DNA of 64,000 bases from Sipunculus nudus (taxonomy: Eukaryota; Annelida; Sipuncula; Golfingiida; Sipunculidae): contig CM049306.1 of NCBI GenBank assembly GCA_026874595.1, positions 79,138,142-79,202,141 on the forward strand, written 5' to 3'. This document shows positions 8,918 through 44,010 of the stretch, piece by piece; the first letter of the stretch is position 1, and every line of letters starts with the position of its first letter. Both the position numbers and the translations under genes were made by a program. Below the pieces are notes generated by a model that saw nothing but the letters and a program-made list of their open reading frames with translations, was not told the DNA's origin and made no database searches.

Positions 8918-9314
8918 CATTTAGTTAAGATTCCGCCGATAGAGGCCGCCACTGCGAATACAGCAGATGTGCGGATCTATGGCCCTGGTTATCACTCCAT
9001 CCCCGGCCTCACAGTTTTTTTTTATTTTAAAACACTTTCTCTAAACTTTTCGGCGGTGTTCAGTGCAAATAATCACCATTGTGCGTTCGCAGACTTATCA
9101 GAATCTGTGTACAGATGACTGCCTACAAAAACAACTCATGCGTGGACTAATGACACTTTACACACGTGTTCTTCCTGGTTTTAAAACATGCCGTTATGCT
9201 GGATGTACGATGCTTTGTTTGTGTCTGAGGTGATGTTGTTCACATTTGGATGTCGCTTTTGACGGACACAAATATTATCATCTCCGAGGGTTACATTCTA
9301 AACCTGACATAGAG

Positions 9315-9393
9315 ATGGCGAAAAGTCAAATATTCTTGATCCTCCTGTTGATGGTGCTGTGGATGTGTTATTTGTGTGCAGGTGCGGGTAAAA
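9315..9393 (+). CDS. Exon 1: start codon and signal peptide
   Basis: ATG at 9315 opens [20 protein letters not shown] followed by CAGAGK. This is a classic hydrophobic signal sequence with small residues (CAGAG) for signal peptidase around residues 21-25. The exon ends AAA A|gtaagt, a perfect donor in phase 1, which matches the phase-1 acceptor of exon 2. The start was chosen because it is the only ATG giving a signal peptide upstream of a phase-1 donor. No upstream 5' UTR exon can be ruled out. Confidence 0.85.
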
Positions 9394-11226: not shown

Positions 11227-11288
<62 letters not shown>

Positions 11289-14200
11289 CACTTATAAATG
11301 TTGTTATTTTACAATACAGAGACATGGTGTGCTTCTGGTTGTACAAAAACATGCCCAACGGACTGTATCAGAGCATGTGACAGGAATAGTGGGAATTGTA
11401 CGCAAGGTGAGTGCTCAGAAAACTCAAATGCAACACATGTGCAGCTAATAACACTGGATATATTCCTTGTCTAAGTAAAATATTCATCTAAAGAAATATT
11501 TTTTTTAAATTAAGGATGCAGAGACGGATTCTTCGGAAGCAAATGCAGACGTCGTTGCTCAGATAGTTGCGGTGGAGCGAATAAACCTTGTGAACAGGAA
11601 GGCGGTCACTGCAGTAAAGGCAAGTTTGATCTTCTAAAACAAAATGAGATATAACTGCTAAATGATTGTACTAAAACGTGGCAACGATAAGACCCTGACG
11701 GCATGTTTCATATGACCGAATGTGAATGCAACTGGATTGGTTTGCATAATCGTTCAAGTTAGTTCAGATTACGGCGTAACTCTTAATAATCCAGCCTTTA
11801 ACAAAACTCGCTGTTCGGAAAATTACCATTTAATCTTGCTTCCAATAATTTTTTGTCGGTAAATTCTACTTCATTAATCGATGTGTCTTAAATAAAGCTA
11901 GCTTCAGTTGCGATATTGTTAAATTAGGATTAACTCTGATATGTAAACAAGAGTTAAAACATTTATCTGGTTACTATTGAAAATGGATCAGTGTTGCAGT
12001 CGAATCCACAACAAAAATGCAATTGCAAGTCCAGGTCACTCAACCCCAAATCCTAGTTCTCGAGGTTCTTCCACCATCTTCGAGTGCAAGTCACATGGAA
12101 TCTGACTCCAGTTCCGAGTCAAACATTATTCTCCTTATTAAAAGTACTTTTAAATGGAACTTTTATATTATCACCTGTTTTTATGTTAGTTTACACCTGT
12201 TGTTTACATTAATGTTTATTTACATTTAGCCCCTGATGCCGAACTTAAGCTTTGTAAAAATATTCTTTACTGCAGAGAAGAATTTTCTCAATTAGTTCAC
12301 ACATGTGTTGAAGTTTTTGTACTAACTTCACGATTCCTGATCTCGCAGTAGGAGTCCAGGACCTTCGAGTCCAAGTCTGAGTCTCAAAAACGTGCATTCC
12401 ATTACGGACTCGAGTCCTACATCACAGAACTATTCATTAAGAATAAAGCACAATAGCAGAAACAGTATTGCTTATGGCGCTTTAGAATAATATCAACATT
12501 AATAAGTGTTAAATAATATTAAAATCACTTGGCATTTAACGTTTAAAATTCCTTTTAAAAATATATCCTATTATATAGATAACTATTTTACATCATTATT
12601 AATTTTTCTTGAAAGAAACGTGCAAATCCTTTTGAAGACATTCAAGTCTATCTATGACCTCATATCTATAAGTAACCCGTTCCAAGCTAGTTGTACTTAA
12701 TAATGCTTCAGTGTGAACTACCCTTTTTGGTAATAAGTCTCTAACCAATTGATAATGAGAAACGCCAAACAGTGTAGCCTACTGGATATTAAACTGTGTA
12801 CCGGCGTCTTCTCTGCACCTACAGAGTTTTTCTCTATTTTTTTTTCTTTCATTTTGCAGGCATGATTTAACCAAACTGTTAGCATTGTTGTTAGTTAGCA
12901 AAATGACTGAATCAAGCAGATTTCCAGATCTGAATTTTACTTGTCACTTTGTTATATAAAGTGGTTCTATTATATTTATACGGATGACTGTGTAGGAATG
13001 TATAGTGATGAGATACAAAGGGGTTTTTTCCAAAGGTCAAATGATTATATTATGTTTAACATGTTATCTCTTAATGATTCGGAGATTGCTTCAAAGTAGA
13101 ATGTTGCATTAGTCAAAATTCGTATATTATTTGAATTATACAATTATGTGGGAAAAATGACATTCATTTCAGTATTTACACAATTACATTTTCAGTTAAA
13201 ACTTTTATGAAGAGAATTATTCTTCAAATTTTCTATTTTAACCAGCCTTGAGGGTAAATAATTTTATAACGTTATAAGGGTGTGTTTGGAGACTCTTGAA
13301 TCAAGTAAATCTTATATCTAATATATGGAATCCTATGATCTGGTAAAATATATCATTCTTTAGGTTGCACTCCTGGAAGATATGGGGCAAAATGTAAATC
13401 ACATTGTCCAGCTGAATGCAGAAACCAACAGTGCCACAGCAGTACCGGCAAATGCTTAGAAGGTATAAAACATTAACCCATCTTTAAAGTGAAAACAAAA
13501 GGGTTAATAAAAAGTCAAATTGAATTGTCTGGATTTTAATCAGTCACTCCAGTACTTAATTTATTTGTAATTGCATTTCTAAACATATTTTTTACTATTC
13601 AGTTGGCCGCAAACAGTGATATGTTCACACACCAAGGTATGCAGAATGTTATTCTGAACTTATAATGTTATTTCTGCCTAAATTTAGTTCACCTGCATGC
13701 CAGGATAAATCTAAATAGAATTAAAGGGTCCGTGGTCATCCATACCTTGAAATGAAATTGCCCATATTGCAAGGCAAGTACGCCCAAAGCGGTCAAAATT
13801 AAGAAGAATATTCCGACCAGTTCCTTTTTAGGAGGGGTGGCAAATTACCAGTGCGGGTTTCTTGGGGTCGTGAAATACGTCGATTCGTTTGGATTTTGTA
13901 AACTCTTCGCAACTTTTTGTTTAAGGTGTATTGGCAATGTTGACGGGTAAAGTCGCATTTTGTTACAAATGTTAATAGATTCGAACAGGCTGTTGCTAGA
14001 AAACTAGTAAGCCTACACATGGTCCAGAACTGTACGCTGACGGGTCTCACAAACACCCGCCGAGGCTTTGGATGCACCAACTCAATTTTATACATGGGCA
14101 CTATTTAAGAGAGAAAAAATACTAGCGATGTATATAAACAATTTGTCAAGCCTCAAAGGACACTGTTTCAGATTGACTGGAAGAGTCCAATAATTGAAGA

Positions 14201-17200
14201 AGGGTAAAATGGTTTGACACATTAAATATATAAAATGTACCAGTTCTTTTGAACTTTGCTGATTGACTAGAGGAAAATTTGTGATAAAATCATAACCTGT
14301 TTCGTGACTTTAATACTATGACTTAATTTCACGATAGCTTTTCATTTTCGGAATATGCAATCCTTGCCTTGTCACACATATTGTGCTCTCCAGCACCATG
14401 TTGCCTGCGTGACCTCCCGTTACAGGGATCTACCTGCGTGTTTTACAAAATATTATCCTTCTTACAACAGGAAGGCATATATCAGGAAGACATCTAAAAT
14501 ATTAAGTAAATAATAAAGAAATGGACATACAGTGTAAAAAACGCCAGTTAAATGTCAGATAAGTAGGATTATTTAAATAGGCCTACATATAGTTATAAGG
14601 AAATGAACCACAAAAGTAACAAATTTAACCGAAATCTACACTAACAGCTTCAAGCGTCTTTGTTCTGGGAGCTATGTTTCAATAGTATGTTCCCAGTAGT
14701 TCGAGGCACTTTGGTTTTAATTCTTGTGGAGTTACCTCTGGTGTTAATGAATAATATGGGAATACACATGAGCATTAGAAATAGCGTTAATTTTTTATAT
14801 TTCGGCCGTTTGTTTCGGTTTTATATACTGACAAGTAAATTTCACGCTACGACCGTGACGTCCGGTTATGTCATTCCATTATGACGGCAAAGTTTTTTTC
14901 ATATACAGAGCTGGGTTGACCATGAACTTTTCTCATAAAGAAAAAGCAAAATTACAAAAATTAGGTTGTTCTCTCGGCATTCGCCGGATCGCTATTAAAA
15001 CCCATTGGAAAACCACGTAGAGAAGAAAACGCAAAAAAAACGTAGCGACACGGTTCGGGGAATGGACTATAATTGAAATTGTTTAGATTTTAAGCAGTCA
15101 ATATAGTGCAGCACACCAGGCTATAGACTGGTTGGAGAATACAGAACAAGGTTTAAGTCAGGAAACGGTAATAACACTGCTGTAGGCATTTTTAAATCAA
15201 ACTGTGGGCATGGTTGTTGGTTAGAGAAATGACGAAATCAAGCGACCATTTAGAAGCAGTTTGCCAATCTGAACTTTTCTTGTTAATTTTTCATATAAGG
15301 CGTTTCCATAATACAGATAACGATATAGGAATATAGTTACGATGAGATACAAGGGGATTTACATAGCTCAAATCATCATTTTGTCTTAAATTTTATTACT
15401 AAATGAATTTTGTATTAATTATTTGTATATGGAAGGGAATAAATTGCCGTTTTCGTCCATAGAATACCTAATTAACACATTTTATCCCTTTAACATCTGC
15501 TGTCAAACGAGAAAAAAAACAAGATTTCATGAAAAATTTTATTACTCGGTTGATTTTTTTCACCTAGAGAGGTCACGTTTTCTGCTTTGGATACATTTTA
15601 TAAGCTGTTAGTAAATAAACTCCAAGTCTCGTCATATCTCCCGACACCTACTGTCAAACAGAAAATGTGATGATAATGATTATAATGCGGCTAGATTTTA
15701 AGATAGAGACGTCTAGTGTTCCGTTTTAGGTAGCATTTAATAAGCCCTTAGACACACGATCAAAGTTGCATTAAATGTAATAAGACGGAGTTAATAGACA
15801 ATGCCCTTTATGCTTATAACCCAGTCAGTTTGTATGTATATAAATCAATTATTTTACATGCCACAGAAGTCTAGTATTCTGCTTTGTGTGGTATTTGTTA
15901 AGCTCTATCCACGTCACATCAAATCGCGATTCGTTTGAAAAGAAACGAGAATGTTACGGAATCGATGACAGCTGACCTCCGGACACTGTTGCAGGTATTG
16001 TTACGATTACATCTTGTTTATTAATCTATTTTGGATATTATCAAGCTCATGTTCAAGTTACACAACCTACCCGTGCTACCCTGTTACTGCTCACTTGCCG
16101 TTTACCAAAGAGAAGACCGCCGATGGTGGGTTGGACGGGGTAGGGAAAGGCTTCCCCTGTGACCGCTCGGGGATTGTAGACATCTGATTATGGTCTTACT
16201 TTTAATCCCACATGTCCGTACACAATAGTGTATTTATGATTGTTCTTAAGGTTGTAGCGCTGGGAAATATGGAGACAGGTGTCATCTGCACTGCCCTGTT
16301 GGCTGCGAAAAATTAACAAGTTGTGATCAAAATAACGGAACATGCTCGCAAGGTTAGACTGAGTGATACGTAATCCAGCTGCCTTATAATACATAAATTT
16401 AAGTCGTTCTAAATTTGAATAATGGTATTAAGATATTATTGTTTAAATTTACTTTTACCATCTAAACACTAGTGTATTGACATTGCGGCTAGTTTTGTTC
16501 CAAGATAAATTATAAATATTGTGTTGTATCATAATTTTCAATGTTTTTTGATAATTCATCTTTCCACAAAGGGTGCATAACAGAAAGATACGGAGACTGG
16601 TGTAACAAATCTTGCTCCTTAGATTGCGGGGGAAACAGGACGTGCCACAGGATGACCGGACGCTGTGAAGAAGGTACGATTTTGTTTATACAGAAAAAAA
16701 CAAGGATTTCCTTGCAGACCACATATAGGGAGTACTACATCATTTTATTAAATAAGAGCACCGTAAATGGTGCATTACACGCCCGTTGCATATTTTGTGA
16801 CCTCTGACCTAATTGAATATGCGTGAATTTGCTGAGAAGATTATTCAGGTGAGAAACTGTATTGGTTAAAACTCAGCATGAATTATATTAAAATCCATCA
16901 GGTATTTGGTAAGTCAGGGTGGTGCCACCAAAGTGTTATTATCATTAATAATATAATCTTGGACATTCTTGAAACAACCCTTTACACAGAGGTAACTGTT
17001 AAAGAAAGTATGTACAAAGGTCGTCAGATAATTGATAACTATTGCTCATATATTGTTTAAACTAAACAACTCCGTCTTTAAAGTCAGCTATTCCCCTACC
17101 TATTCTAAAGAATGTATGTGGTTTTTGGCCTCCTCTTAGTTATCTGAAATTATCAGGGCATTTAATAGATTGCCCAAGAAAGAATCGATTAGATTTTGTT

Positions 17201-20200
17201 GCGGATCCAACATCTCCGGATTAAGGAACGTCTTGAAGGAGTACTCACAAATGCTCATTCACTGAAGCACACATGAGCCAGGGAATATGGACCAAAAAGA
17301 AGTGAATGTAAACGCGGTCTGCGTGCACCACGCAGGCCTGCTAACCCATACACATCATGGTCGAGCGCCGTTAACTTTGATTCTAGTGGTTCCTGTAATA
17401 TAGCTTTGGAAATTTCAAATTATGAACTTTATCACCGGGATATCAATGTTTGCAGAGCGTTTTTTTTAATAGATGCTCACAGTAACGAGGCGATTAGCAT
17501 CTAACAATAGGCCAAGCAGTCATGGACAGAATCTCATGAAAATGTTCAGGTCATTTCAGGAAGGGCATGTGAGAAATTTATTACATTTTGGTAAGGATCC
17601 CTCACATGATCCGGATTCAAGAATGTCTTCAAGAAATATTATCGAACGTAGAGTCACGCATACACGAATGGACTAGGGAATATTGGCCGAATAAACAAAT
17701 GCAAGCACTGCTTTAGAGCAGCAACGAACAAAGGGAACCACCACATGGCGGGGGCGTGCATTCCTTGGAATACAAATTTATACTTCTTGTTATATTTTTT
17801 AGGTTGCAGAAGTGGACACTTCGGAGCAAATTGCGAAAAGAATTGTCCTAATAATTGTGCTGATGGTCAGAAATGTAATAGAACATCCGGGATTTGCACA
17901 TCAGGTAAGATGATGTTTTCCTCAACTACCTTACTATAGGCCTGTCCATCTAAAGCAGAAAAACTTAGTAATCCAAGGCACTCTCCGTGGCTTGGATGGT
18001 TGCTTTAGTTAGTCTGTAAGGGTAGAGGAAACCGGAGGATTAAGAGAAACCAACCATTTTTCACGGGCCACAACAACTCGCTCTTCTAGCGGGGACAGCA
18101 TTGCATCTTACCTCTTGTCTTCTGGTACCCTTATACCACTAGACTGAATCCGCCTATATAAAAAGGGGAAAAAAGAAAGAAAGAAAATAATTAAATTATT
18201 CAATAATTTGCATCCGGAGGTCCGAGAAAGTCTCCCCAAACGGATTGAACTAAAGGTTGACATAATAATCTTAACCTCAATTTGAACCCCTAAATATGGG
18301 AGAAAAATTATTAATATGAAAAATTCTTTTTTATGTACTGGTGTATTGTTCGTTATTTCATGTAAACAAAATTCTTGTCATAACAGGATATGTCACCGGG
18401 TATCTTGGATATTCTTGAGACAACTCTACACAGACGTAAATGTTGAGGAAAATCTGGACTAACAATTGCTAACAATTTCTCATATACATTAGATTTTACT
18501 TTTTAGCATTTAAAGCCAGCTATTCACCGGCCTTCTGTATAGAATGTTTTTATTTCCTGCTTCCTCTGAGAGATATTAATGAAAACTAGGCAATTCCTGT
18601 CAAAAAAAAGCTCTTGTAAGGCCTAGAATATTGTACCTTTGTTTAAATCGACTCTTATCAACTCAAAACCTGTGTATTGATGTTTCCGCTAATTTTGTTC
18701 GAAGATAATTTATAAATATTGTGTTACATAATTTACAATGCATTTTGACTTTTCATCTTTCCACAAAGGGTGCATAACAGAAAGATACGGTGAAAGGTGT
18801 CAAAAAATTTGTTCCTTGAATTGTGGAGGAAACAGGACGTGCCACAGGACGACCGGACGATGTGAAGAAGGTACATTTTTGTTTATTCAGAAATGAAACA
18901 AGGATCTTATTGCAGAACACACATAGAGAGTACTTCATTATTATATTTAGAAAGGCAGAAATGAATGATTTTTTTCGTGAGATCTGAAGAACATGTTATC
19001 ATCAAAATATAAAAGAATTTTTCACATGCCTGAGACAATCCTTTACAAAGACGTAAATGTTGAAGAAAGTATGAACACAGATCGTCAGATAATTGCTTAC
19101 AATTTCAAATATATACTTTAGATTTCATACAATTCTGCTTGAAAACTAGCTATTCCCCTACTTTCTCTATATAATTTATGTGATTTCTGGCTGCCTCTGA
19201 GTAATTTAAAATGTTCAGGACATTTTGAAAATGGGCCAAGGAAGAACCGATTAGATTTTGTCGTGGATCCAGCATCTACTCCGGATACAAGAGCGTCATA
19301 AAGAGTTATTCACAAAAGTACAGTCACTTATGCACAAATGTAACTGGCATTATAGATAAAAAAATAAGGGAATGCACACGTGGTCCCCTTGCACCATGCA
19401 GGCCTGTCCACCTGCTCAGGTAACGGTAATGATTCTATAACTTCGGAATCAAGGTGTCCAGTGGTTCTCTGCAATACTGCTTGTGCACACCGGCATTTTT
19501 TAAAGTATGAAATTCACACGGATTTCAATGTTCGCAGAGCGTTTATCTTTAAACGTGAGCTCTCATTAACGGGATGATTAGCTGTCTGCCCAGAGCATCT
19601 AACAGCTGGCCTCTGCCAAGGATTCCAAATTAAAATAAACCGGCCCAAATGAAAAAAAAAAAATCATTACAGCTCCGGTGCCGCCAGGAGGGTAGGTGTT
19701 CAATCTAATTCGTATGTGTTTGTGTGGGTTTTTTTTTTCAAAACATACCTCAAGCACTCATATGCGAAATCTCATGAAATGTTCTGGCCATCTCGGGAAG
19801 AGCCAGTAACCTATGACATTTTGGTAGGAATCCCTTACATGATACGGATTCAGAACGTCTTTAAGGAATATTCACGAACGTAGAGTCACTTTTGCACTAA
19901 TGCACCAGGGAATATGGGCCGAATAAGTAAATGCAAACACTCTTTTAGAGCAGCAACGAACATAGGGAAGCACCAAATGGCAGGGGCGTGCATATCTTGG
20001 AATACAGATTTATACTTCTTGTTATATTTATTTAGGTTGCAGAAGTGGATACTTCGGTGTCAATTGCAAAAGGAAGTGTCCTGATAACTGTGCTGATGGT
20101 CAGAAATGTAATAGAACATCCGGGATTTGCACATCAGGTAAGATGATGTTTTCTTCAAATATCTACTATAGGCCTGCCAATCTAAAGCATTTTTACTTAG

Positions 20201-25852: not shown

Positions 25853-25898
<46 letters not shown>

Positions 25899-31800: not shown

Positions 31801-34800
31801 GCGGTCGAGGAAGTGGTAGGGAAGGTTGAATGAGGTGAGAAGAGAACCTCCTCACTAGCCGCAACTACAGGCCCCATAGAGGAGAGGCCGGAGTATTGTA
31901 GACACACATCACGAAGCTAATAGGTCTTAAAAGTACAAGAAGATGCCTCACTTGATCAAATGAGAAACAGAGACACCCGACAGGTGTACGAAAGTAGCGG
32001 CGATGGCTCGCGAAACTTTATGCGCCTTAACATGGAATGAAGGAAGGACTTCCTTGGGGAAATGTTCGTGAGCAAGTTTGTGTCTTGTATTCATTTACTG
32101 ATAGTAATGAGACGAATTTATTTTGATGAGGCAACCTATTTGGACGAAATTAAAAATTTCTTCCGCCCCCCCCCCCCACCCCCAATTGAAATAGTGGCCT
32201 TGTGATAATATCGCAGGACACGAACAGGACAGGTCGTGACATCAAAACGGTGCTTTCATTCAGGAAGTGCCGGAATATGCCACGGAACATCAGGTTCATC
32301 GAAATCCTGATTTTTACGAAAAATGAATCAGGTGTAAAAGAAGCGTGGTGGACGAACCGGCCGCGACACTTCGCAATGAGAGGAGCGGATCCACGAAGAT
32401 TTCAACGTGGATGCGGCGGAGCAAGACGTTCAAGGTCAGGGGAGACATCGATCGAACGCAGGTGTGAAGGTCGGCGGCAGCAACTCAGCAGTATCTGGAC
32501 CTGAGAGGAATGTACGTACGTAGACTGGTAAGCTAAGCTGCGTGTCCACTTAAGCTGCGTGTCCACTAATGCGGTATGGATACGGATGAGGATGCTGACG
32601 CGTTTTAAATCGCGCATAAGGAATAAAGAAGGCGTGTGTCCACTTAGCGGTGCTGAGTGCGTACGGCATGTGGAAACGGAGACTTTTTTGTTAAAACCGG
32701 ACAACGTAGCCGCGGTTACGGAAATACATACGGAAACGCATGCGGAGAAATGCCATTTTGTAGAGGGGAAAGAGAGTGAAAGACCTAAAAACGCACTGAC
32801 AAACGTATCTAATGGATACACACAAAACAAATCCGCATACATATCCGCACCGCACACTCACCGCATCCGCACAAGTGGACAAGCGGTTTTATGCGGTACG
32901 GATACGGACTCGGATGCGATTTAAATCGCGCATATGGAATAAAGAAGGAGTTTGCCCACTTATGCGGTGCGGAGTGCGTGCGGCGTGCGGAAACGGATAC
33001 GTTTTTTGAAAACCGGACCATGTAGCCGCGGGTACGAAAACGCTTGTGGAAACGTGCCAAAAACGTTTTCGAAAAACCATATTCGTTTCCGCACGCCGCA
33101 CCCACTACACAAGTGGACACACTCCTTCATTATTTCATATGCGCGATTTAAAACGTATCTGCATCCGTACCTCATAAGTGGACACGCAGCTTAAGACCTT
33201 CAACAGAAAGGAACAAACGTGGAGAAACGAGAGATCAGTTGCTAGGCAACAGAGAATATGTAAGAATTAAGCACATCAAATACTGACGAAAAAAAGAACT
33301 CGGTTGCTGGACGTCAGATAAGGACGTTGTCTAAGGCCATAACCTAGATGACCACAGCGAGAAGAAGCCGTTCTGTCCCGTGTCGAGGAAAGAATAGCCT
33401 GAGAAGTGACGTAAAATAAGGTTTTATGTAAAAAACAGAATAAGGAGAAGGGAGTGAGGGTGATCCTAAGACAAGGAACCCAGGCTAACCGTGATAAGTA
33501 TAGCTGACGGAGAAAATTCTCATTAATACACAAAACGCTCACATTCTGGTTTACGTAATAAAACATGTCTACTCTAGGTGTTGATGTTGGCGGAATGGGT
33601 CGCTGTATTGTTGTATTACTGTATTTTTGCATTGTTCCACTGACCAAATTAAATAGATTTTGCATAAAGAAAAAAATAGACAATGTAACCGCAGATTTTG
33701 TTACTCTCTGTTTTGCAACCAAAATAACGTTATAAATGTATCCTAGACTGTGCAGAAGAGAGGTATGGACCAACATGTAACAATATCTGCTCACATAATT
33801 GTTCGGCTGGCTGTGATAAGGACAGTGGGGAATGCCTGGCCTGTCCACGTGATAGATACGGGGAGAACTGCGACAAAATATGTTGGCCTGGTTGTGAGAA
33901 AAGCAGTTGTTTAAATGATAATACCTGCAAATGTAAAGAACACTTACAAGGAGATAGATGCGAAGGTACCTCACATTTTACATGTTTACGTTAACTTTCG
34001 TTAACTTATATACCCTGTTTAATATTTAAATAAGGGCGACCTTTTTTGCAAGAAAACTGGCAGTATGTTGATACTTTATATAAAAATGGATACCTTTTGA
34101 AAGGATAAAAATACCAAAGAATCAGATACATTAATTGTATAATATTTCGATAACATTTGTAATATAAAATTGTATTGAATAGGTATGAAATATCATAATC
34201 CCTTTTATATTCACTAGAATAACTTTAACTAATGACTTAAATAACTTTCAAATGAATAAAAACAAACCAACATGTACATATACACATATTATATATGTAT
34301 TTCAGTGCAAGGTTTGACGGGAAAACAAGCTAATACGGCTGTTCTGGTGGCTGTCCCAGTCATATGCGTTATCATCATATCTGTGTTGGCGGTATTGCTT
34401 ATTGTATGGTTCAGGTCAGCAATAATGCCTTAACACTACTCAGTGTTATCATATGTTTACACAAAATAGTATACTGAGCTGAATTCCTGCCCAATATGGT
34501 CTACAAATACAAAATAAATGTTAAAAATGTATGTGAAAAGCGCTAATAAAATATTTATAAAAAAACAGAACATTTTCTATTGTTAGTCCAGTGTGGTCAC
34601 ATGAAGTCAAAGTTATGAATAGTTTGTTGATTTCTCTCAGGAGAGGAAGACCAAGGTTCTGGAAGAAAGGGGATCCAGGAAATCCATTCCTCGGTAGGTC
34701 AAATACCTGGTGAATGTACTAACTGAAGTTCATGACGGTTTTCTAGACGGTCACAATAAACTAAACTGTCTGTCAACATTACGTTCTTTTACTATATCTA

Positions 34801-37800
34801 TTTTAACAAATAACGCAATGCCATAGAACCAGTGCAAAACTCGACTCAATATTGTGATTTATTATAAGAATCTTTGGAATATAAATCAATTGGACTAAGT
34901 TGTATTGTAGAAAAGTTTCTTTTAATTTAATATACTGGACACACTTACAATGGAGAAGCAGACGTACTCTCTCTCTGTTATATGCTTTTATTGCATTTCT
35001 GTGTATCTAGAAAATCATATGAATGCTGCTTTTGAGGTAAACGGAGATACTGTGGATGCAATTCCATCTTACCAAAATCTTTCATCCTGCATCGCTGTTG
35101 CCGCCTTTCCAAAACATGTCGAAGCTCTGACAAAGACAATGTACGGATTTGATCAAGATTTCAAGGTGAGTATACGTCATTTTATTGTAATTCAAAGAAA
35201 ACATACAAAAACTATAGAAGTAGTCAGAACGTCATGCACATATTCACAATGATATATGCACTTTCATTTTGCAATATATGTGGTTTGCAGCATGTATCAT
35301 ATGAAATAAAATATATAAGGTATTCAATAAATTAAACCGTCCGTTTAACGTTTTGTTCGGAAGGATATTCCTGCAAATCCAATACATTCTTGGGATGTTG
35401 GAGTACTACCCAAGAATTTCCGAAAGAACAGGTTCACAAATGTCATTGCATGTGAGTACATTTCAGTCCGTCCTATCATGGGGGCTCATTCTTTTTTTTA
35501 TATTTCCTAATATGTTCCGTTAAACGTCAACGGGTCAGGTCCTTTTAAAAATATGGGGGGGGGGGGTTTGGTATTTAATCTAAAAGAAAATCATTAAATT
35601 TTTTTTTCGGAGAGTCACACTTGACAAAAATGCTTACCTCTCGGCAAGGTAACTTTATAATATAATGTAAATACCCTTCAGCTTTAACTATCTGTTTTTT
35701 TATAACCATAGAATGTTATCATGTTGAGATGCACAAGTGAAATCACAGACATAGCAATCTCTTTTTTTTTACTCTTCAGATGATCACAGCAGGGTAAAGC
35801 TGGCCACAAATGGTGACGATGACTATGTGAATGCCAGTTATATGAATGTGAGGCCACCATTATGATATTATTCAAGTATTAATATAAACTCTCATATATA
35901 GATGTATATGTAAATATAAGATGACCATGCATATTGTATACTTTGATTTCCTTCAGCGATCCCGCTTAACGTATATTATGCTCATATGCATTTGGTCAAA
36001 CAAGAAAATATACAACCATATTCTTCTCTGTTATAGGAGCAATCTAATTTTCTAATGATATCGTTTAAAATGCGGATAGGCTATAAACTGACCTTGTTAT
36101 TTACTTCATGAATAATACTATATATTTTTAATACTTTTTCAGACACCCGAAGCCCCAAAAAAGTTTATTGCAGCACAAGGTGTGTACAACATATTCATTT
36201 AATTTGCTTGTATGACTACCGAATCTTTTGCGATGTTTCTCTCAGACATTCGGCTTAAGGTGTAGGGTATGGAGTTCAGGGAGAGATATGCCAATTAACT
36301 ACAAATATTTGTTTCTTAGATGTAAATAGTATTATATAGATCCGACATGCATACAATATTGTTCATGGTATCTATATCAGGTATATTCTTATTTCTTCTG
36401 TTCATATATATTTTATTTGCTTTATCGTTTGACACAATCCATTCCAGAGTCACTTTGCTGACTTAAAAAATATCCGATATCACTACCAAATGAATCGATA
36501 TATTTATATATTAGGATGTGAACACGGTGTTAAACACATCTGCATTCCTGAAAGCAGATGCGATATATTTTTTCTGTTTGTTTTCAGGGCCCAAACCTGA
36601 ATCTGTTGATGACTTTGTGTTGATGCTGTTTGAACAGGGAGTCCCCCTTGTTGTCATGGTAACAAATCTAAAAGAGAACAAAAAGGTAATTATTGTAGTA
36701 TCCAAAGTGGATATCTTATCTTTATAGTACAATGATTATTGCCTGATGGAAGTTTTTGTAGAGAAGATATATGTGTAATTGCTGATATTTGTAAGAACTG
36801 ATTATCTGAAAGTCATGTACATCTACGCTTACCTTCTTTAGTCAAAATGCGAGAGGTATTGGCCGACCGACGAGGGCGAGGAAGAAATATTTGGGGAGGT
36901 TAATGTTAAGATGACATCAGAGACTAAGATGCCACATTACATCAGTCGTCAGCTGATCCTGGAGAAGGTATCATCCATTGAAGTTTACATGAAAAGACCC
37001 GGCCACATATTAGGGCATTTGTTTAGTTGTATATAAGGCCATGTCTAACATTATGTTTCACACAAGTTGCAACATGTTCCCCAAACAACCCAGTTTCTGT
37101 CTTAGTGACTTCACAGTGGCCCTTTTTCTTGAGTCTAATTTTAACTGCTCTCAGCGTCTCCTTCAATCCTGTAATCCTATTGGATAACGCCCAACAAATG
37201 TAACCTGATACCGTGTAACATATCACATGAAAATAGAACGTTCTTTTTCTTGAAACATTTTACTGAAGACTGGAAACATATGACATTTACCCGCACGTAT
37301 ATGCAACATTACATGTTCCACAACCTGTTATGCGACACATTCCCTAGTGTGGGATTTTTTTTTATATTAAGAAGTTTTCATTACGTAGTTATTTTGAAAT
37401 CAGATTTTGGACGTCATATAAAAACCAATATCTTAATCAAAGGCTAAATACCATGACTATAATCAATGTAGGATTATGAGTGTAGTTGCACATTTGTAAA
37501 AATATTTAAGAAAGCGGTGTAAAAGTATATACCACAAAGAGTTTTAAATCTTATACAGGATGAAAAGACCCATGAACTGACCCAGCTTCAATACATCTCT
37601 TGGCCCGACCATGGAGTCCCAACAAATGCCGCTTCTTTCTTGAACTTCCACGAAGAGGCTGCTAAACTGTACGCCTTCGACAAAGGTCCAACAGTGGTGC
37701 ATTGCAGGTAGCTATACAGCGCACCTAGGTTGATAATAAAATTCAGTGATTAGACACCGAAAATACTTGGTATACCAAAAAACAGTTAGAGTTATCCGCG

Positions 37801-40674
37801 CGAAACTTACTGGAGACAATGATTTATTACAAGAAGTCCAGTAGGCAAATCGACATTGATTAAATAATAAATCAATATTTATCATCATTATTGAAACAAT
37901 ATTAGAAAGGCAATGTATTTAAAAATTGCTTCAACCTTGAATCATCAACATTGAGAGAATTATTTCAAATCAATAATGATTCAATATTGACAACTTGTCA
38001 AAATTTAAGACTGAATTACTAGTGAAAATTCAACATTGATTCAATGTTGAAACCTAGTTGATCATCAACATTGAATCATCAATGTCAAATCAGCATTGAT
38101 TTAATTTTGAAAATGAGTTGAAAACAGCTTTGCATCATTTCAATTTGTTTTCAATATTGAAACGTTGAGTGCCTACTGGGAGGTGCATTAATTTAAAATC
38201 AAGCAGAATCGTAACCCTGCCTCGATTTGATGGTAACCTTCTTCATTAATCATTTTGTGCCACAAAAAGTCCATCCTGTGTGCAGAACTCGTATGACTAA
38301 ACCCATTGAGCAATACAGACAAAAGAAAATAATGGGAGTTTACTCAGAAGAAACCTGCTAGGTGTTTCATTTTTAAACGTAGAATATTACCTATAAGCTT
38401 TCTTTTATTGCTTCTGTCTTCCAGTGCCGGGGTCGGTCGAACCGGTACGTTTCTGGCGATGGACTATCTTTTACAACAAGCTGACGAAGAAGGGAAGATC
38501 GACATTCCTAAGTACATAAACGAAATGAGAGACAAGCGTGTCTTAATGGTGCAAAGTCTGGTCAGTGTTTCTGTCATGTTTAATATCACATAACAAATAC
38601 CTGACTGGAAATGAAAAGCAGAATGGAGATATTAGAATAACAAAAATTTCAAAATTTTGCTCCCTTTTTAATTCCAAACACGCACATTTTCAGATTCGTT
38701 ATCCTTACTAGCTACCTATCAATTACTTGCAAAAGGGATTAATTTTGATTCAGAAGTTACCATTCCGAAAACCATGTACTTTCCCCAAGAATGTTTTGTC
38801 TATCTCGCTTAAAAGAACGCAGCTCATACAGTATGCCTGAATATATTTATATGAACCTCATAAAAATGTCTCACTTTAACTTAACACTTAAACTTAAAAC
38901 TTAAAAAAACGAGAATGTACCACTTATTTACCTTTGCTTTTCTTTTACTGATTTAAAAGCTACAAAGGTAATTACATCTTGACGAACGTAAATGAATTCG
39001 GAGATACCTAATGAAGCATTGAAGATTTATTTGATTTATTGAAGGTGCAAAAATTCTTATTGTTATCCATGGTTACATATGAACCAATGTTTTGCTATAT
39101 TACATTTATCTTGATGCTTTGCGTGATTTATTTAAAAGAGTCAGTATGTATTCATCCACGAGTGTTTACTGGAGGCTCTGCACTGCGGCAAAACGGTGTA
39201 TCCAGTGGACACTTTCAATGCAGAAGAGCTCTTGTCCTCACAGGACCTGGCCACCCAGTATGAGGTATATACATAGATGTCTGTTTGTTTGCTTTTTTCA
39301 AATCAGGTAATGGTCAAGGTCATAATTAAAGACTGGTAGGAGGTTGATATATCATTGTTGTATTTTTTTCCTTACTCTACAACTCGCTTGATATCGGATT
39401 TTTTTAAAACGGGTAAACACATTTACTATGGTTTTGATTCAGTAGGTTGATGTGAAATTTTATATAAATAGGAAAATGTCTGTGCAACGGCAATTCTTTG
39501 ACAACGCCAAACAGCTGGAACCCCCCCCCCCCCCCCCTATTTTCCTGATTCCTACAAGGACCGAGGATGCATGAAGAGTATTGACAACATTGCAATATCC
39601 ATCATATTTCAAACTGATTCTTAAATTTATTTGATCATTGTAGCATTTTCATCTTCTTCTCCCACCGTTATCTATTTGTGAAAGAGTAATGTGACACTGG
39701 ACATCAAGGAAAACGTTAACGTTAATAAATATTTTAGCTCTGGGATCAGTATTTCGTTAGACCCATGATGGCTTTATTTACATATTTGACAGTAGCAAAT
39801 ATTTCAACTAAATCTACCTGTAAAAGCACGTGTGATATCAGTAAGATAACATTTTAGATGCTGGATATCATGAAAATACCGGTGTGGCCCAATGACGTTG
39901 AAAACGGATCAATATTGAACAAGCATAAAGACCGCGAAGGAACACCAGTTCCAAGAGACAGTCGGCGTCCAGACTTGGTCACTGTGGTCAAAGGGCATGA
40001 CGAATACATCAACGCAGTACTTGTTCAGGTAACCAGTATTATTTAAACCAGTCAAGAACTGCATCCTGAGAACCTAGCAGGAAGAAAGTTATTTTGCATT
40101 TCATCACTGAGAACAAATTTATGAGTCTCCGGATGTGACTGTGAATACTGTGGTTGGCGTCAACTTCGCGGGGTTCAAAGATCACGATCTTTACAGTTTC
40201 ATTGTTTCGTGAGGGTTTCATTTTCGCGATCTCGCAATATGAACAAAAACTACAAATAAATAATTGTTATAGGAATTAATTGCATAACATAATGCGCGCG
40301 TAACATCTTAATAATTGAAAGTCGAAATAATTGTTCATTAATGACATTTACTTTTCGCATTGCCTTACAAGTTGAACATCTTGTTTACAGTTGTTTTATT
40401 TTCGCAATAGTTCCCTTAATAATTCGTAAATATCGAGATTTTGTAAACCTTCGAAAACAGAGGCAACTACAGTATATAGTTCAACACCATCCACCCCTCC
40501 TGATCACTTCTAATCCCCTGACATCACGAATGTAGTACCATTGAAACTGTCGTCACGAATGCAGGATTATATTTTTAGTGCCTGTTTTGTTTTTTTTTTT
40601 TTTTTGTTTTGTTTTGTTTTGTTTTTTTATTTTGGTCTGCATCGAACAATAAGAGACCAACAGTAAAATAACAT

Positions 40675-40706
<32 letters not shown>

Positions 40707-40708
40707 AA

Positions 40709-40744
<36 letters not shown>

Positions 40745-43700
40745 TCGAATACCTCTTTTCGAAAGTACCTACCATTTTTCATATTATTGTGAGTGCGCCT
40801 ATGGATGGTTCCCTTGTACCCTGGCCTGAATAGCTCTATAAACATTGTATTTTAATATAAATTGTCAAGGAAGTTTTGGTAAGGTAATGTATGCTTGTTA
40901 CTGAAATGTGTTTAATGTAATGCATGTGATTTGTACTCCAATGTGTATTGATTTATAATATAAATAAATAACCGCTATCCACAACAGGGCTATTCCGAAG
41001 ACGACAAGGTGCTTGTTACCCAGTCACCCATCGAGAACACCGTGGTTGATTTTTGGCGTTTGGTCTATGACTGCGAGTGCGGTGTCATCCTGGCCCTTAA
41101 TGAAACTGATATTGACGTATGTTAATATATATATTTTTTAACTCTTTGAATAACGCTCGAACTAAGTATGTACTATTCTCGACAAAATATCATAACTGTT
41201 TACCAGTAATTATTATATCAACAGGAATTTTCCACATAGCATTCTGCACATGAGCCATGATACAGGTTGCAAGCTACGAAGATAATAGGATCATTTCCTG
41301 CAGGGTACAAGTCAATGGATTAAACTAGAAGGGGATAACCTGTGCCTTTGCATGTGGTTGTAATTACAAAAACGTAATGCATTAAAGTATGGTTATAAGC
41401 TATAGTGCAACTTCCTTTCATCGTTCCTTTCACCGAGAAAAATAAAATCGTTATATTCTTCCAGATCGAGAAATTGAAAACTTAAAGAGGAACAACATAT
41501 TCTAACATGTTATTATAAGTATATGACTCCATTTACCAGTTTAGTATTTCTTCAATGGCAATTCGTTAAACCCCGTTTAAAGTATCAGGAAGAAAAACGA
41601 TATTGATGTCCTTTGAGATAGTAATAGAACTTGGCAATGGAAAAAATGCAAAAGTTTGGGATTCTAAACTTCATTTATAAAACATGTCTTTAAGGTAAGA
41701 ACTCTTATATCTCTTTGGCTGAGAATACACTGTGACAATGACAGAAAACAAAGGTGTTTGTTGTAGGATTACCCAGGTTATTTGCCAGAGGAGGAGCAGG
41801 TTTATGGCTGTTTTGAGGTGACCCCCCTTTCATGTGAAAAGACCGGGAATTACATCAAAAGGAAACTAATGCTAAAAAGAAAGGCAAGTTTTAAGACTGT
41901 GCGTTAGTTCTTTTATAATAATGTTGCTTATGGGTTGTTGAATAACCTTTTTTGTTATGTTCATTGTAAGATATTTTAACTTACCACCAGACTTTGCTGG
42001 TCTGAATGTGATTAGTAATTCAACATTGTCGTCTAATTAAAGCAGGGAACTGGTTTTGGTAAATGAAAATATTGCACTGTTACTCAATCCCTTTTCCGTT
42101 AAATAATTTTAGAATCGCAAGAACTGGTGGCTTTCAGTGTGTATGATATCCCTTGAGGGATTATTATGACAAGATCTCAAACAACAAGAATCAACTCTTG
42201 CCAAGTACAGGATCATATGACGTATCCATAGATGAACACTAGATATTTTTTTGGGGGGGGGGGGGACCTCGTAGTCAGGGCGACAAGGGTATTCCATATT
42301 ATGAATATCAAGGAAATGAATAATAAAGAAAACGTTTTCACTTTGCTTGGCCATATGATATTCTATACTTTATTCAGGGATACGATGTTAGTAGACTTTA
42401 ATTCTGATGTCAGAGATGATGCTTGATAGGGAACCATACAGAAAAATTGACCATAAAAATTTATTTCCTCTTTGCGTAATTCAGTGAATAGACGAAGCAG
42501 ACAATTAAAAATAAAGATAAAAATAAAACCTCCATGATGAGAATAAATACGATATCCCTGTAAAATATAGTGTATACTATTTGGAAGTCTAAACGTTTAC
42601 GTGTGGGCAAACTAACTTTCTTTAATTAATTTTATTAAGGAGGAAGAGTTGGTTGTGTATCACATCAGGCCCCAAACAATGCCAACACCACAGGAACTGC
42701 CGGAAATCCCCACCATGTTGTCTGTGCTGGAAGAGATCAACAACCTAAAGAGGGACGCGGACGAAAACGGCTTGTTGATCCACTGCCAGTGAGTAGAAGA
42801 AGATATTTATAACCACAATGTTTTAAGAATAGAGCAAATATCAGTAACTATACACTAAATTATGCAGATTGCTAAGATGTTCATTGAAAATGGAGTACAT
42901 GTTTCGGGGAGACGTAGACACAATCAGAAGGGACTCATCTCTGCACAAATGCATCAACATACCTCTGCAACCATGAAATTCCATCTACCCTTGGTCAGAA
43001 TTCAAAACCCATAGTTTTATAAGAGTGTTCATTAAAATTGAAATGACTGCTCTTACACACATTTCAATAAGTACAATTATAGTACTTATTTTAGGATCCT
43101 CGCCCAAGTGCCTGACTGGGTCACAGAAACCAGAACCGCTCTGTTCCTGTTTTTACCGCATCGAACATCCGAATACCATACGATATATCATAAATGTTTC
43201 TTTAATTTAACTTTCATCTTACCTGTTAGTCCTGTATATCATGTAACCATATGTTGCATGTTGCTGTCTTGATTTGTTTCTTGTGAACACTACACATTAC
43301 ATCTATAGAAACTGTTACTCAGATCCCCTAATGACTGCAAAAGGCGTTGAGTATTATATTCGCAAATGTTAACTTAACATACACTATTATTGCATGCAAA
43401 ATATAACATCCTATTTTTACAACTGGTCGGAGACATTTTCCAGTATTATTTACCCTCCCTCCCACTGTGCTAACAAAAAAAACTGACTCCGTTGAACCTA
43501 AATTTCTTGTTGGAAGTAAACATTTTTCGATCATTTCAGACAAGGCGTTGAGTTTTCGGGGTTGTTCTGTGTCCTCGGCATCGTTATTGAAAAGATCAAC
43601 CACGAGCAGGAGGTGGGAGTTTTCCACGCTGTCAAACAAGCCAGGCTCAGCAGACCAGAGTTCATCACCTCAATGGTAGGTTGTTGTATATTTACAAATA

Positions 43701-44010
43701 ACATATACACAACACTATGTACATTCATATGTATTTGTTACAACATTTGTACAAGTAAACTCGTTTCTCCCATGTATCACACATCTTGTCAAAATATAGC
43801 ACACACAATGCAAAAAAAAAACACACGAATAGCCTCTTAGGTAAAAGTAATGATATACAAATAGTTATCAGTGTTATTATATATATAATTATATATATAA
43901 CGATTTTTTTACAGGACCAGTACAAGTGGCTTCATCAGGCAGCGGGCGCCTACATCGAGACATTGACAACATATGCAAATTTTCAAACGCCTGAGTCCCC
44001 TGTAAAATAA
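9315..44010 (+). CDS. MEGF/EGF-repeat receptor-type tyrosine phosphatase with F5/8C-like domain (35 coding exons)
   Basis: Predicted single-pass receptor of 1527 aa. Exons: 9315-9393, 11320-11406, 11515-11619, 13364-13462, 16251-16352, 16572-16673, 17803-17904, 18769-18870, 20036-20137, 21056-21157, 22650-22751, 23253-23477, 25375-25602, 25904-26119, 26312-26446, 30386-30694, 30990-31214, 33747-33965, 34306-34414, 34641-34693, 35011-35165, 35364-35451, 35780-35847, 36143-36179, 36588-36685, 36842-36967, 37559-37707, 38425-38560, 39139-39264, 39858-40028, 40988-41116, 41767-41883, 42640-42788, 43540-43675, 43915-44010. All junctions are AG-acceptor with GT donor except GC donors after exons 3 and 32. 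Phases agree throughout and the total is 4584 nt. Order: signal peptide (about 1-24), EGF array (27-436), F5/8C/fucolectin-like domain (about 437-584), further EGF modules (585-880), TM (about 891-914), PTP D1 (about 950-1262), PTP D2 (about 1263-1515). Role (inference): extracellular ligand binding linked to dephosphorylation of phosphotyrosine at the cytoplasmic face. Non-coding first exons and isoforms cannot be seen. Confidence 0.9.
9545..11234 (+). mobile_element. Tc1/mariner-like DNA transposon relic in intron 1
   Basis: The inverted ends are CGGGTGATTCGGAAAAAA at 9551 and, reverse-complemented from 11229, CCGGTGATTCATAAAAAA, embedded in TA-rich target DNA. Inside, 10557-10900 encodes a degenerate helix-turn-helix transposase start: [20 protein letters not shown], a GKPG...RRTKITLKR stretch and, after a frame break, [19 protein letters not shown]. 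This layout (linker, then a homeo-like helix-turn-helix) is that of mariner/IS630-type transposases. The catalytic DDE region is missing, so the copy is dead. Confidence 0.65.
9844..10547. mobile_element. MITE with about 65-bp terminal inverted repeats, nested in the mariner-like element
   Basis: The left arm TTATAAGGTTGTTAGTCTTT (continuing through cataattatcaaggaataa, ttaggtagcctaatatt) is repeated inverted at 10484-10547 with only a few differences. The 704-bp unit interrupts the mariner-like element. No transposase is recognisable inside; the open frames at 10036-10312 are without domains. Confidence 0.75.
11320..16352 (+). CDS. Exons 2-5: EGF/MEGF-like modules (four single-module exons)
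   Basis: Exons 11320-11406, 11515-11619, 13364-13462 and 16251-16352 are all phase 1-1 (29-35 codons). Each encodes one compact cysteine-rich module, for example [19 protein letters not shown] in exon 4 and [19 protein letters not shown] in exon 5, ending Cys-x-x-Gly with the Gly split by the intron. The C-x5-G-x2-C-x3-C-x3-C spacing is that of MEGF10/SCARF-type EGF-like repeats. Exon 2 is slightly divergent ([20 protein letters not shown]). Exon 3 uses a GC donor (AAAG|gcaagt at 11620), supported by the conserved CxxG end. Confidence 0.85.
12880..13110. repeat. Duplicated intronic segment, copy A (partner 15190-15420)
   Basis: The stretch with gttgttagttagcaaaatga, ...atcaagc..., gatgagatacaaaggggttt is matched at about 15190-15420 (gttgttggttagagaaatga, gatgagatacaaggggattt), 2.3 kb downstream. 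It indicates an older segmental duplication around exons 4 and 5. Confidence 0.65.
15190..15420. repeat. Duplicated intronic segment, copy B (partner 12880-13110)
   Basis: See the partner entry. The shared landmarks occur in the same order and at similar spacing, with roughly three quarters of bases agreeing by eye. Confidence 0.65.
16572..22751 (+). CDS. Exons 6-11: six EGF modules in three A-B pairs
   Basis: Exons 16572-16673, 17803-17904, 18769-18870, 20036-20137, 21056-21157 and 22650-22751 are each exactly 102 nt, phase 1-1. Type A (exons 6, 8, 10) reads [20 protein letters not shown] or close variants, then GNR.CHR.TGRC.EG. Type B (7, 9, 11) reads [20 protein letters not shown] or close variants, then [15 protein letters not shown]. 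The A and B copies are very similar to each other within type, except exon 11, which has drifted ([20 protein letters not shown]). The alternation follows directly from the tandem duplication. Confidence 0.9.
21819..21990 (+). mobile_element. Fragment of a pogo/Tc1-like transposon end in intron 10
   Basis: The sequence tatatagtgaaacctgtgta, with AAAATGACC, then ACTGGCCAGATGCTGTCTTA and AGGTGGTCTCAATAGACAGG, follows the pattern of transposon ends described for many invertebrate pogo-like families. No matching right end was found. Confidence 0.4.
22818..22862 (+). repeat. (GATA)n microsatellite
   Basis: Interrupted GATA/GACA/GGTA repeats in intron 11, about 100 bp after exon 11. Confidence 0.9.
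23043..23140 (+). pseudogene. Dead EGF exon (relic of a type-B module)
   Basis: The 3' two thirds still read [20 protein letters not shown] then YCISG, followed by gtacga, matching exon 11 (CAD-GxKCNRTSGxC) and ending with a plausible donor. The 5' part lacks a GGTTGC start at a proper acceptor, and the interval between the first two conserved TGC codons is 5 nt shorter than in exon 11, which breaks the frame. Exon 11 joins exon 12 in phase without it. Confidence 0.75.
23253..23477 (+). CDS. Exon 12: double EGF-like module
   Basis: A 75-codon exon, phase 1-1, starting [20 protein letters not shown] and continuing [33 protein letters not shown]. Unlike the upstream one-module exons it carries two modules in one exon, with the more typical EGF ending CSCRDGYYG. 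Confidence 0.9.
23600..23975 (+). repeat. Two-copy degenerate tandem repeat in intron 12
   Basis: gaagtactgcatattctttc at 23618 recurs as gaggtactgcatattctgtc at 23850, each followed by a tttgatac/ttcgatac and a caagtt block, so the period is about 232 bp. Only two imperfect copies are visible. Confidence 0.5.
24713..25036 (+). other. Unassigned 107-codon open frame in intron 12
   Basis: An uninterrupted frame begins [20 protein letters not shown] and ends [13 protein letters not shown]. Its composition looks protein-like rather than low-complexity (charged, few rare runs). It has no acceptor or donor that fits phase 1 of the host gene, so it is unlikely to be a receptor exon. It may be part of an old transposon. 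I do not recognise a family. Confidence 0.3.
25375..26119 (+). CDS. Exons 13-14: F5/8-type-C / fucolectin-like (galactose-binding fold) domain
   Basis: Exons 25375-25602 and 25904-26119 (phase 1-1) together give about 148 residues. Exon 13 opens [16 protein letters not shown], the usual 'NLA.GKPA.QSST' start of F5/8C and fucolectin (FTP) domains, continues with [20 protein letters not shown] (family: WWxVDLG..Y.V..V.I), and exon 14 has [20 protein letters not shown] and a terminal [11 protein letters not shown] (family: L.LCEVEV). This fold binds glycans or lipids in relatives; the ligand here is unknown. The expected AVDGN segment is weakened to AVMGNTNC. The acceptor of exon 14 lies directly after (TA)n. 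Confidence 0.85.
25855..25897 (+). repeat. (AT)n microsatellite abutting a splice acceptor
   Basis: An alternating AT tract ends six bases before exon 14 (acceptor ctacag), so it occupies the place of the polypyrimidine tract. Confidence 0.9.
26312..33965 (+). CDS. Exons 15-18: membrane-proximal EGF/laminin-EGF-like modules
   Basis: Exons 26312-26446, 30386-30694, 30990-31214 and 33747-33965, all phase 1-1, have 45, 103, 75 and 73 codons. Exon 15 reads [17 protein letters not shown]...[10 protein letters not shown]. Exon 16 packs several modules ([54 protein letters not shown]). Exon 17 has [20 protein letters not shown] and [20 protein letters not shown]. Exon 18 has [19 protein letters not shown] and [18 protein letters not shown]. 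The repeated CxxCxxGxxGxxC spacing is that of MEGF/laminin-type EGF modules. N-glycosylation sequons occur (for example NCT, NVS, NKT, NCS). Confidence 0.9.
26579..30066 (+). mobile_element. 3.5-kb repetitive element with internal tandem arrays in intron 15
   Basis: The left end AGCTCAGCTGACTGAAAGTC, with ATCTGAGCTATAG and a CCGTC/CCGTCTGT run, and the right end CCCAGTCAGCTGAGCGTCAT with GGGTCACTTGTTT form short inverted termini (GCTCAGCTGAC/GTCAGCTGAGC) of a kind often seen in mollusc repeats. Inside are about seven copies of a 320-350-bp unit marked by TCTCTGTTACCCATATCCTT (26755, 27104, 27430, 27745, 28090, 28430, 28760), then about three copies of a 280-290-bp unit marked by GCTCATATCTCGGGAACCGT (28947, 29222, degenerate 29510). 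No transposase is visible. Confidence 0.7.
29179..29192. repeat. 14-bp perfect palindrome AGGTGGCGCCACCT (also at 29466-29479)
   Basis: The core GGTGGCGCCACC occurs once per repeat unit, for example at 26915-26926 and again near 27253 and 27593, and in decayed form (ggtggtgccacc, ggtggcaccacc, ggtggagccacc) near 27912, 28250, 28921 and 29036. It is the best conserved point of both internal unit types. Confidence 0.8.
31215..33746. other. Intron 17, with GC-richer inserted DNA
   Basis: Between 31640 and 33480 the composition is clearly richer in GC than other introns. A TTAA-flanked element fills 32554-33190. The flanks (31640-32550 and 33195-33480) look alike in base use and may be one inserted sequence of unknown type cut by that element; a minus-strand frame at 31626-31907 is Ser/Thr/Pro-rich without a known domain. 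Confidence 0.5.
32554..33190. mobile_element. 637-bp MITE with TTAA target duplication
   Basis: The left end GCTGCGTGTCCAC is the exact inverse of the right end GTGGACACGCAGC, and TTAA flanks both sides (32550-32553 and 33191-33194). TTAA duplication is the hallmark of piggyBac-type transposition. The interior is built from sub-repeats (tgcggta.ggatacgga, ttttaaatcgcgcata, gtgcggcgtgcggaaacg) in both orientations, giving a strong fold-back. A second GCTGCGTGTCCAC copy sits just outside the left end at 32536-32548. Confidence 0.8.
34306..34693 (+). CDS. Exons 19-20: transmembrane helix and juxtamembrane segment
   Basis: Exon 19 (34306-34414) enters in phase 1 and leaves in phase 2. It encodes [10 protein letters not shown], then about 24 hydrophobic residues beginning [20 protein letters not shown] and ending IVWF. 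Exon 20 (34641-34693) continues with the basic stop-transfer segment [17 protein letters not shown]. Positive residues on the C-terminal side put the phosphatase domains in the cytoplasm. Confidence 0.92.
35011..39264 (+). CDS. Exons 21-29: PTP domain D1, predicted catalytically active
   Basis: Exons 35011-35165, 35364-35451, 35780-35847, 36143-36179, 36588-36685, 36842-36967, 37559-37707, 38425-38560 and 39139-39264. The visible PTP motifs in order are: wedge/N-terminal [20 protein letters not shown]; phosphotyrosine loop KNRF (1007-1010) with [46 protein letters not shown] with the general acid D1142; the P-loop [10 protein letters not shown] with nucleophile C1174 and R1180; and the Q-loop region [19 protein letters not shown]. 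The usual KNRY tyrosine is Phe. In the family this domain hydrolyses phosphotyrosine in proteins. The exon 29 acceptor (atttaaaag|AGT) is weak but is fixed by the frame and by the SQY spacing. Confidence 0.93.
37838..38179. mobile_element. About 342-bp inverted-repeat element in intron 27
   Basis: Termini CCAGTAGGCA (37838-37847) and TGCCTACTGG (38170-38179) are exact inverses. The interior is made of short mutually inverted blocks such as attgattcaatgttgaaa, tcaacattgaatcatc and caacattgat. It therefore can fold back over most of its length. No clear target-site duplication is visible. Confidence 0.7.
39858..44010 (+). CDS. Exons 30-35: PTP domain D2, predicted pseudophosphatase, and C-terminus
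   Basis: Exons 39858-40028, 40988-41116, 41767-41883, 42640-42788, 43540-43675 and 43915-44010 (stop TAA). D2 landmarks are [40 protein letters not shown] and GVILALNE, and the C-terminal [20 protein letters not shown] then [10 protein letters not shown]. The signature loop reads [13 protein letters not shown]: Cys 1450 is kept but the arginine of CX5R is Phe 1456. The WPD position reads RPQ (about 1411-1413), and the KNRY loop is absent. Catalysis is therefore unlikely; in two-domain receptors D2 usually regulates or stabilises D1. Exon 32 uses a GC donor (AAAG|gcaagt at 41884), required by the frame. Confidence 0.92.
40687..40741 (+). repeat. (TG)n/(TA)n microsatellite in intron 30
   Basis: A short tgtgtgtg run leads into imperfect (TA)n, about 250 bp before exon 31. 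A poly-T/TTTTG tract at 40588-40628 precedes it. Confidence 0.85.

Follow-up and report, generated by a model that had tools for sequence, protein, structure and literature searches.

A predicted two-domain receptor tyrosine phosphatase with an EGF-like and F5/8C ectodomain in Sipunculus nudus, and its relatives in the same genome

Analysis of a 64,000-nucleotide stretch of the Sipunculus nudus genome (hereafter the window; C1:79138142-79202141, in a genome of 1.43 Gb) indicated that it very probably carries one long gene, encoding a cell-surface receptor with an intracellular tyrosine phosphatase. The modules of the predicted protein follow each other as signal peptide, EGF-like array, F5/8C domain, further EGF-like modules, transmembrane segment (TM) and two phosphatase domains (D1 and D2). 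The order F5/8C-EGF-TM-D1-D2 is also found in single uninterrupted open reading frames elsewhere in this genome; the architecture is therefore neither a mis-join nor unique. Based on the sequence data, we consider it probable that one gene encodes a type I two-domain receptor tyrosine phosphatase of an F5/8C-EGF-TM-D1-D2 family, which would act in recognition signalling as proposed below.

Reconstruction of the gene

The coding region was curated as a chain of 35 exons on the plus strand (9315-44010), reading in one frame of 4,584 nt and yielding 1,527 amino acids with one terminal stop. This rebuild bore out the in-phase chain from signal peptide to stop that a preliminary description of this DNA had given. 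The chain starts with:

9315..9393 (+): exon 1 with a phase 1 donor, coding for start codon and signal peptide; of the hydrophobic ATG starts in 9000-11320 that have an in-phase donor, the one with the highest score (9-aa hydropathy 3.68)

Introns 1-18 are all in phase 1, followed by a phase 2 intron after the TM exon (intron 19). Phase 1 introns around all of exons 2-18 are as expected for shuffled extracellular modules.

A separate gene model, calculated by dynamic programming with only the start and the stop being forced, was compared with the curated chain. It agreed with the latter at both boundaries for 27 of the 35 exons and at one boundary for a further six, while two (exons 19 and 29) were missed. 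In the curated model these two exons were set manually, as were the GC donors used by exons 3 and 32; an intronless relative on C9 has counterparts of exons 29 and 32, and a locus on C15 has a counterpart of exon 29. The 15 additional segments of the dynamic-programming model, four of them of zero length, were all omitted. Homology was not seen in 14 of them; the remaining one (23099-23140), an in-phase piece of a truncated EGF-like module, was dropped by judgement, leaving the frame unaffected either way. The truncated module (23062-23142) is a relic with 59% identity over 27 residues to modules of the array, and its part 23099-23140 could splice in phase.

The join between exons 12 and 13 is the least secure of the chain. 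Taken together, the in-frame chain and the collinear single-frame relatives support the earlier reading as a single receptor gene, with the N-terminal array belonging to the same transcript provided that this join holds.

Several other features were observed in the window. Intron 15 hosts arrays of ~280-340-bp tandem repeats (26650-29780) being about 75-83% identical, and intron 12 contains an open frame of 133 residues (24635-25033). Reverse-transcriptase-like open frames, LINE-type by eye, lie at 3-2351, and direct repeats at 60144-61307 correspond to similar open frames every ~294 bases with the peptide TKKDHRLLSHFIICRHIQTLETKHYTVLCTTL.

Composition of the ectodomain

The extracellular part is encoded by the following features:

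11320..22751 (+): exons 2-11, EGF-like modules (ten, each with 6 Cys and 29-35 residues long), phase 1-1
11320-11406, 11515-11619 (GC donor), 13364-13462, 16251-16352, 16572-16673 (+): exons 2-6, EGF-like
17803-17904, 18769-18870, 20036-20137, 21056-21157, 22650-22751 (+): exons 7-11, EGF-like
16439-18075, 18639-20306, 20926-22758 (the last more diverged) (+): tandem copies of a ~2.2-kb unit of two EGF exons and introns, from self-BLAST
23253..23477 (+): exon 12, double EGF-like module with 14 Cys, inside the SCARF1 match
25375-25602, 25904-26119 (+): exons 13-14, F5/8C (fucolectin-fold) domain, PF22633 with 32.8 bits (cut-off 27.8)
26312-26446, 30386-30694, 30990-31214, 33747-33965 (+): exons 15-18, EGF/laminin-EGF-like modules with 8, 20, 14 and 14 Cys

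A PDB search with the N-terminal array gave a single match at E <= 1, SCARF1 (E 5.1e-5). In combination with the Cys pattern, this agrees with the scavenger-receptor-like EGF modules described before, at the level of a weak similarity. No Pfam EGF model attained its cut-off within this array, and the likeness to SCARF/MEGF/Draper is therefore weak only. Main pieces of the tandem units are 70-85% identical in self-BLAST, introns included, and exon 11 shares 64% identity with exon 7 and 67% with exon 9. Judged from these repeats, part of the array is a product of tandem duplication of the two-exon ~2.2-kb unit. Counted by codon position, substitutions among these copies of EGF exons were too few to gauge selection.

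A Pfam scan of the 934-aa ectodomain and TM part at E <= 0.01 returned F5_F8_type_C_2 only and no MAM, Ig or FN3 domain, as had been stated in the preliminary description, which saw EGF modules and F5/8C in their place. In the membrane-proximal array EGF_laminin reached 20.5 bits, just under its cut-off of 21, so that the EGF modules of both arrays are of an atypical kind. The F5/8C domain matched FBP32 in the PDB (3cqo, E 1.3e-7), so that the fold of the lectin-like domain proposed earlier stood, backed by both PF22633 and FBP32, but its fucose-contact residues are not kept. We take the fucose-contact triad to be His52, Arg79 and Asp81 of eel agglutinin. In the window copy Arg79 corresponds to Ser, Asp81 to Met or a gap, and His52 to a gap or Leu. 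None of the three positions is thus retained in the window, likewise none in the C15 relative, while the C9 and C10 relatives keep Arg at the second position. For the window copy, binding of sugar through the canonical motif of F-type lectins is consequently unsupported, and since these residues are not kept, a reading as glycan receptor is unproven.

Transmembrane segment and phosphatase domains

The remainder of the chain comprises:

34306..34414 (+): exon 19, transmembrane segment, hand-placed; the C9, C10 and C15 relatives have a hydrophobic stretch in the corresponding position
34641..35165 (+): exons 20-21, juxtamembrane part carrying a Y-x-N motif (SYQNL), and beginning of D1
35364..39264 (+): exons 22-29 (exon 29 hand-placed), D1 with WPDHGVP and HCX5R intact, PF00102 E 1.4e-77
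39858..44010 (+): exons 30-35 (exon 32 with a GC donor), D2 with HCQQGVEFSG and lacking WPD, TTYANF at the C-terminus, stop at 44008-44010, PF00102 E 1.5e-41

Sequence reading and hydropathy place a single TM between ectodomain and D1. The two-domain tyrosine phosphatase of the preliminary description was recovered with both E-values, the motifs being intact in D1 and degenerate in D2. On account of its HCQQGVEFSG motif and the absence of a WPD loop, D2 is predicted to be inactive, as the second domain of classical two-domain receptor PTPs often is. D1 lacks Trp at two usual places (DFVLMLFEQ versus DFWRMVWEQ of LAR). It scored best with PTPRT (228.5 bits) and PTPRK (219.5), both single-domain PDB chains, compared with 204.8 for LAR D1; its best two-domain PDB matches were PTPRF/LAR 6kr4 and 1lar. 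For D2, the best PDB D2 match was PTPRA (96.1 bits), followed by PTPRS (85.1), in three alignments within the best 60 of 242 matches. The R2B chains among these 60 are single-domain and were taken as D1; the comparison was thus made without an R2B D2, and the resemblance of D2 to the R2B type, claimed earlier, could not be substantiated.

Y-x-N motifs are found in the juxtamembrane part of the window gene (YQNL) and of the C9 and C15 relatives (YENI), with none in that of C10. Tail motifs are YANF in the window gene, YSNF in C15 and YSNL in C10, with none in C9. The window tail YANF aligns with YANF of PTPRA, a GRB2 site in that receptor. The motif is short, however, and several occurrences fall inside phosphatase folds.

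Related loci in the genome

Two intronless open reading frames, obtained from the matches of a Y_phosphatase search of the genome, each encode signal peptide, F5/8C, EGF, TM, D1 and D2 in one uninterrupted frame:

C9:10215765-10219211 (-): 1,148 aa (L039 66-3512)
C10:10511798-10515304: 1,168 aa (L040 199-3705)

Both are collinear with window exons 13-35, with 39% (C9) and 34% (C10) identity, and exons 15-18 align with their EGF regions. In both, the signal peptide directly precedes F5/8C; in the window, the eleven EGF exons 2-12 sit between the two. Pfam recognized two PTP domains in each frame. For C9, EGF_laminin scored 32.3 (cut-off 21) and both F5/8C models stayed under their cut-offs (24.2 versus 28.2 and 21.6 versus 27.8); for C10, EGF_laminin was, in the printed values, level with its cut-off (21 and 21) and F5_F8_type_C_2 reached 29.0 versus 27.8. 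The D1 of C10 is altered in its motifs (WPT, HCDRGVDRTG) and may, by these substitutions, be weak or inactive; not every family member need therefore be active. Modules in the same order, in a locus with introns, were found on C15 (26.19-26.24 Mb): two separate segments matching the window F5/8C exons, EGFs, a TM candidate, D1 and D2. On C6 (22.44 Mb), in a candidate single gene, the PTP domain is preceded by matches to F5/8C, which is weak (E 2e-3), and to EGF (E 8e-5).

Besides the window, nine phosphatase loci, chosen non-randomly by match strength or position, were examined over their open reading frame or over at least 30 kb before D1. Four of these combine F5/8C with EGF (C9, C10/L040, C15 and, weakly, C6) and five do not, namely the LAR-like loci on C4 and C1, L002, L006, and L003, the frame of which extends beyond the part covered. 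L002 (C5) and L006 (C3) are open frames of two-domain phosphatases with PTPRU-type FN3 (33.2 bits for L006 at a cut-off of 24.7; 23.0, just under it, for L002), which suggests R2B-like genes separate from the window type. L003 (C10:10503014-10506703), about 6 kb from the EGF-type gene on C10, encodes a Thr/Ser-rich ectodomain, a TM and a pair of PTP domains; as far as its frame was covered, it matches neither F5/8C nor EGF, and its ectodomain has perhaps been swapped. In the genome as a whole, a rough count from at least 150 hits gave at least 77-79 phosphatase-domain loci, loci without the F5/8C-EGF architecture included, with dense groups on C2, C6, C13 and C15.

Five of six sampled short D1 loci (L031-L036), the exception being L035, score higher with the window or C9 than with LAR, also in a D1-only comparison. 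At the position of DFWRMVWEQ, DFV is found in the window, C10, L003, L032 and L034, DFI in C9, C15 and L033, DFW in C4, C1, C6, L035 and L002, and DLW in L006; L031 and L036 gave no match there. DFV or DFI thus marks the window group, and L003 shares this mark in spite of its different ectodomain. The D1 of C6 is about equally similar to C10 (130 bits) and LAR (126). Since C6 pairs F5/8C-EGF matches with DFW, ectodomain and phosphatase may have been recombined, a suggestion drawn from few sequences.

Alternative readings of the locus

The window could instead hold two genes: exons 1-12 would form an upstream gene for a secreted EGF array, and the receptor phosphatase would start with its own signal peptide just before F5/8C. 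We regard this as unlikely, even though the signal peptide right before F5/8C in the C9 and C10 frames speaks for it. In the C15 locus the 17.7 kb upstream of F5/8C are free of the EGF Cys pattern, compared with 11 occurrences in the 16.4 kb of the window, and two ATG exons upstream could serve as signal exon there. Furthermore, reading through exon 12 leads to a stop overlapping an AATAAA located ~25-30 nt downstream. Against two genes, of the two hydrophobic ATG stretches in intron 12 (23478-25374) neither has an in-phase donor, and the same applies, at a stricter setting, to all candidates in 11407-23252, though a weak signal exon could escape such a simple scan. Exon 1, in contrast, is a strong signal candidate, and the phases agree at the exon 12/13 join, which speaks for one gene, if indirectly. 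Very improbable is a decaying family copy without function. It would account for the truncated EGF-like relic, for two donors being GC and for several splice sites being weak, but 4,584 nt in 35 exons are free of stop and frameshift, and D1 retains WPD and HCX5R.

The role of the receptor may also differ from the one we favor. An adhesion or developmental receptor phosphatase in the manner of LAR or PTPRM, sensing cell contact or matrix with no immune part, is possible, albeit doubtful. Receptor phosphatases with large ectodomains are classically of the adhesion type, matrix proteins often contain F5/8C and EGF modules, and among single-domain chains the window D1 tops with PTPRT and PTPRK constructs, all of which count for this role. 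Against it, LAR-like (C4) and FN3_PTPRU-type (L006, L002) phosphatases stand separately in the genome, and receptor-PTP transcripts are enriched in oyster agranulocytes according to a published report (PMC13070813).

Possible role in recognition signalling

For the receptor as reconstructed here, we propose that the EGF/F5-8C ectodomain, on engaging a ligand or surface, would cause the phosphatase to cluster or to be excluded, which would set the threshold for tyrosine-kinase signalling. D1 would take phosphate off tyrosines on neighbouring receptors or adaptors, its access to these being altered by the engagement, with D2 as a putative regulatory or docking domain, and the Y-x-N sites in juxtamembrane region and tail, once phosphorylated, could recruit SH2 proteins such as GRB2. 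The site of action would plausibly be haemocytes, beside phagocytic receptors of the Draper/MEGF type with similar EGF modules. In oyster, more than 40 receptor-type PTPs are reported to be expressed in circulatory agranulocytes, along with dozens of Draper-family receptors, and a PTP-activity set includes proteins with EGF-like domains (PMC13070813). In a snail, 45 receptor PTPs appear in response categories (PMC8791074), and in a vent-snail genome report PTPRK is among the abbreviations in the legend of an expanded-family figure (PMC7895826). The oyster and snail expression data are compatible with an immune role; they stem from other species, and the passages concerned do not name the ectodomain architecture. 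The recognition role represents a reasonable hypothesis, and the immune role stays inference.

A broader reading, which we offer as speculative and on balance improbable, would see diversified, clustered recognition receptors carrying an inhibitory phosphatase in cis. The EGF/lectin-fold ectodomains would read particles or self surfaces, D1 would set the tyrosine-phosphorylation threshold of phagocytic Draper/MEGF receptors whose ectodomains match, and the F5/8C-EGF part would possibly have been combined with at least two lineages of phosphatase (DFW in C6 versus DFV/DFI in the window group). If true, invertebrates would here have an equivalent of the pairing between activating and inhibitory receptors. 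The family is a concrete candidate for tying tyrosine dephosphorylation to surface recognition in invertebrate blood cells, and its intronless members supply full coding sequences, being directly expressible and assayable.

Comparison with known systems

Receptor phosphatases are customarily classified by the ectodomain. The ectodomains of the main vertebrate receptor PTP classes are built from MAM, Ig, FN3 and carbonic-anhydrase-like parts. With R2B (PTPRM/K/T/U) and R2A (LAR, PTPRS, PTPRD) receptors the window gene shares the TM, a D1 with intact motifs and a tandem D2, but it carries EGF and F5/8C instead of MAM/Ig/FN3, and its D2 is more degenerate than the aligned D2s of LAR and PTPRA. 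Judged by the ectodomain, membership was rejected for R2B, as no MAM, Ig or FN3 was found at E <= 0.01, and for R2A, as no Ig or FN3 was found at this threshold; a separate LAR-like gene is located on C4. PTPRA is alike in D2 (96.1 bits) and in the tail motif YANF; unlike the window gene, it has a short, glycosylated ectodomain. SCARF1, MEGF10 and Draper share the Cys-rich EGF-like arrays and are not known to have F5/8C or phosphatase domains; in the window gene, the cytoplasmic part consists of D1-D2 rather than a non-enzymatic tail. The F-type lectins eel agglutinin and FBP32 are alike in the F5/8C fold; the window gene differs from them by the absence of the fucose-contact His/Arg/Asp and by having one such domain inside a receptor.

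Among the matches listed for open-licence PMC text, no description of an EGF-F5/8C-PTP receptor was found, nor of an already well-described family with the same architecture; automatic annotation may well hold such proteins. The receptor PTP sets of oyster and snail, as far as given in passages of the respective reports (PMC13070813, PMC8791074), resemble the situation in this genome in the many receptor PTPs per animal. By its predicted domains, the window gene is a receptor PTP by kind and new by its ectodomain.
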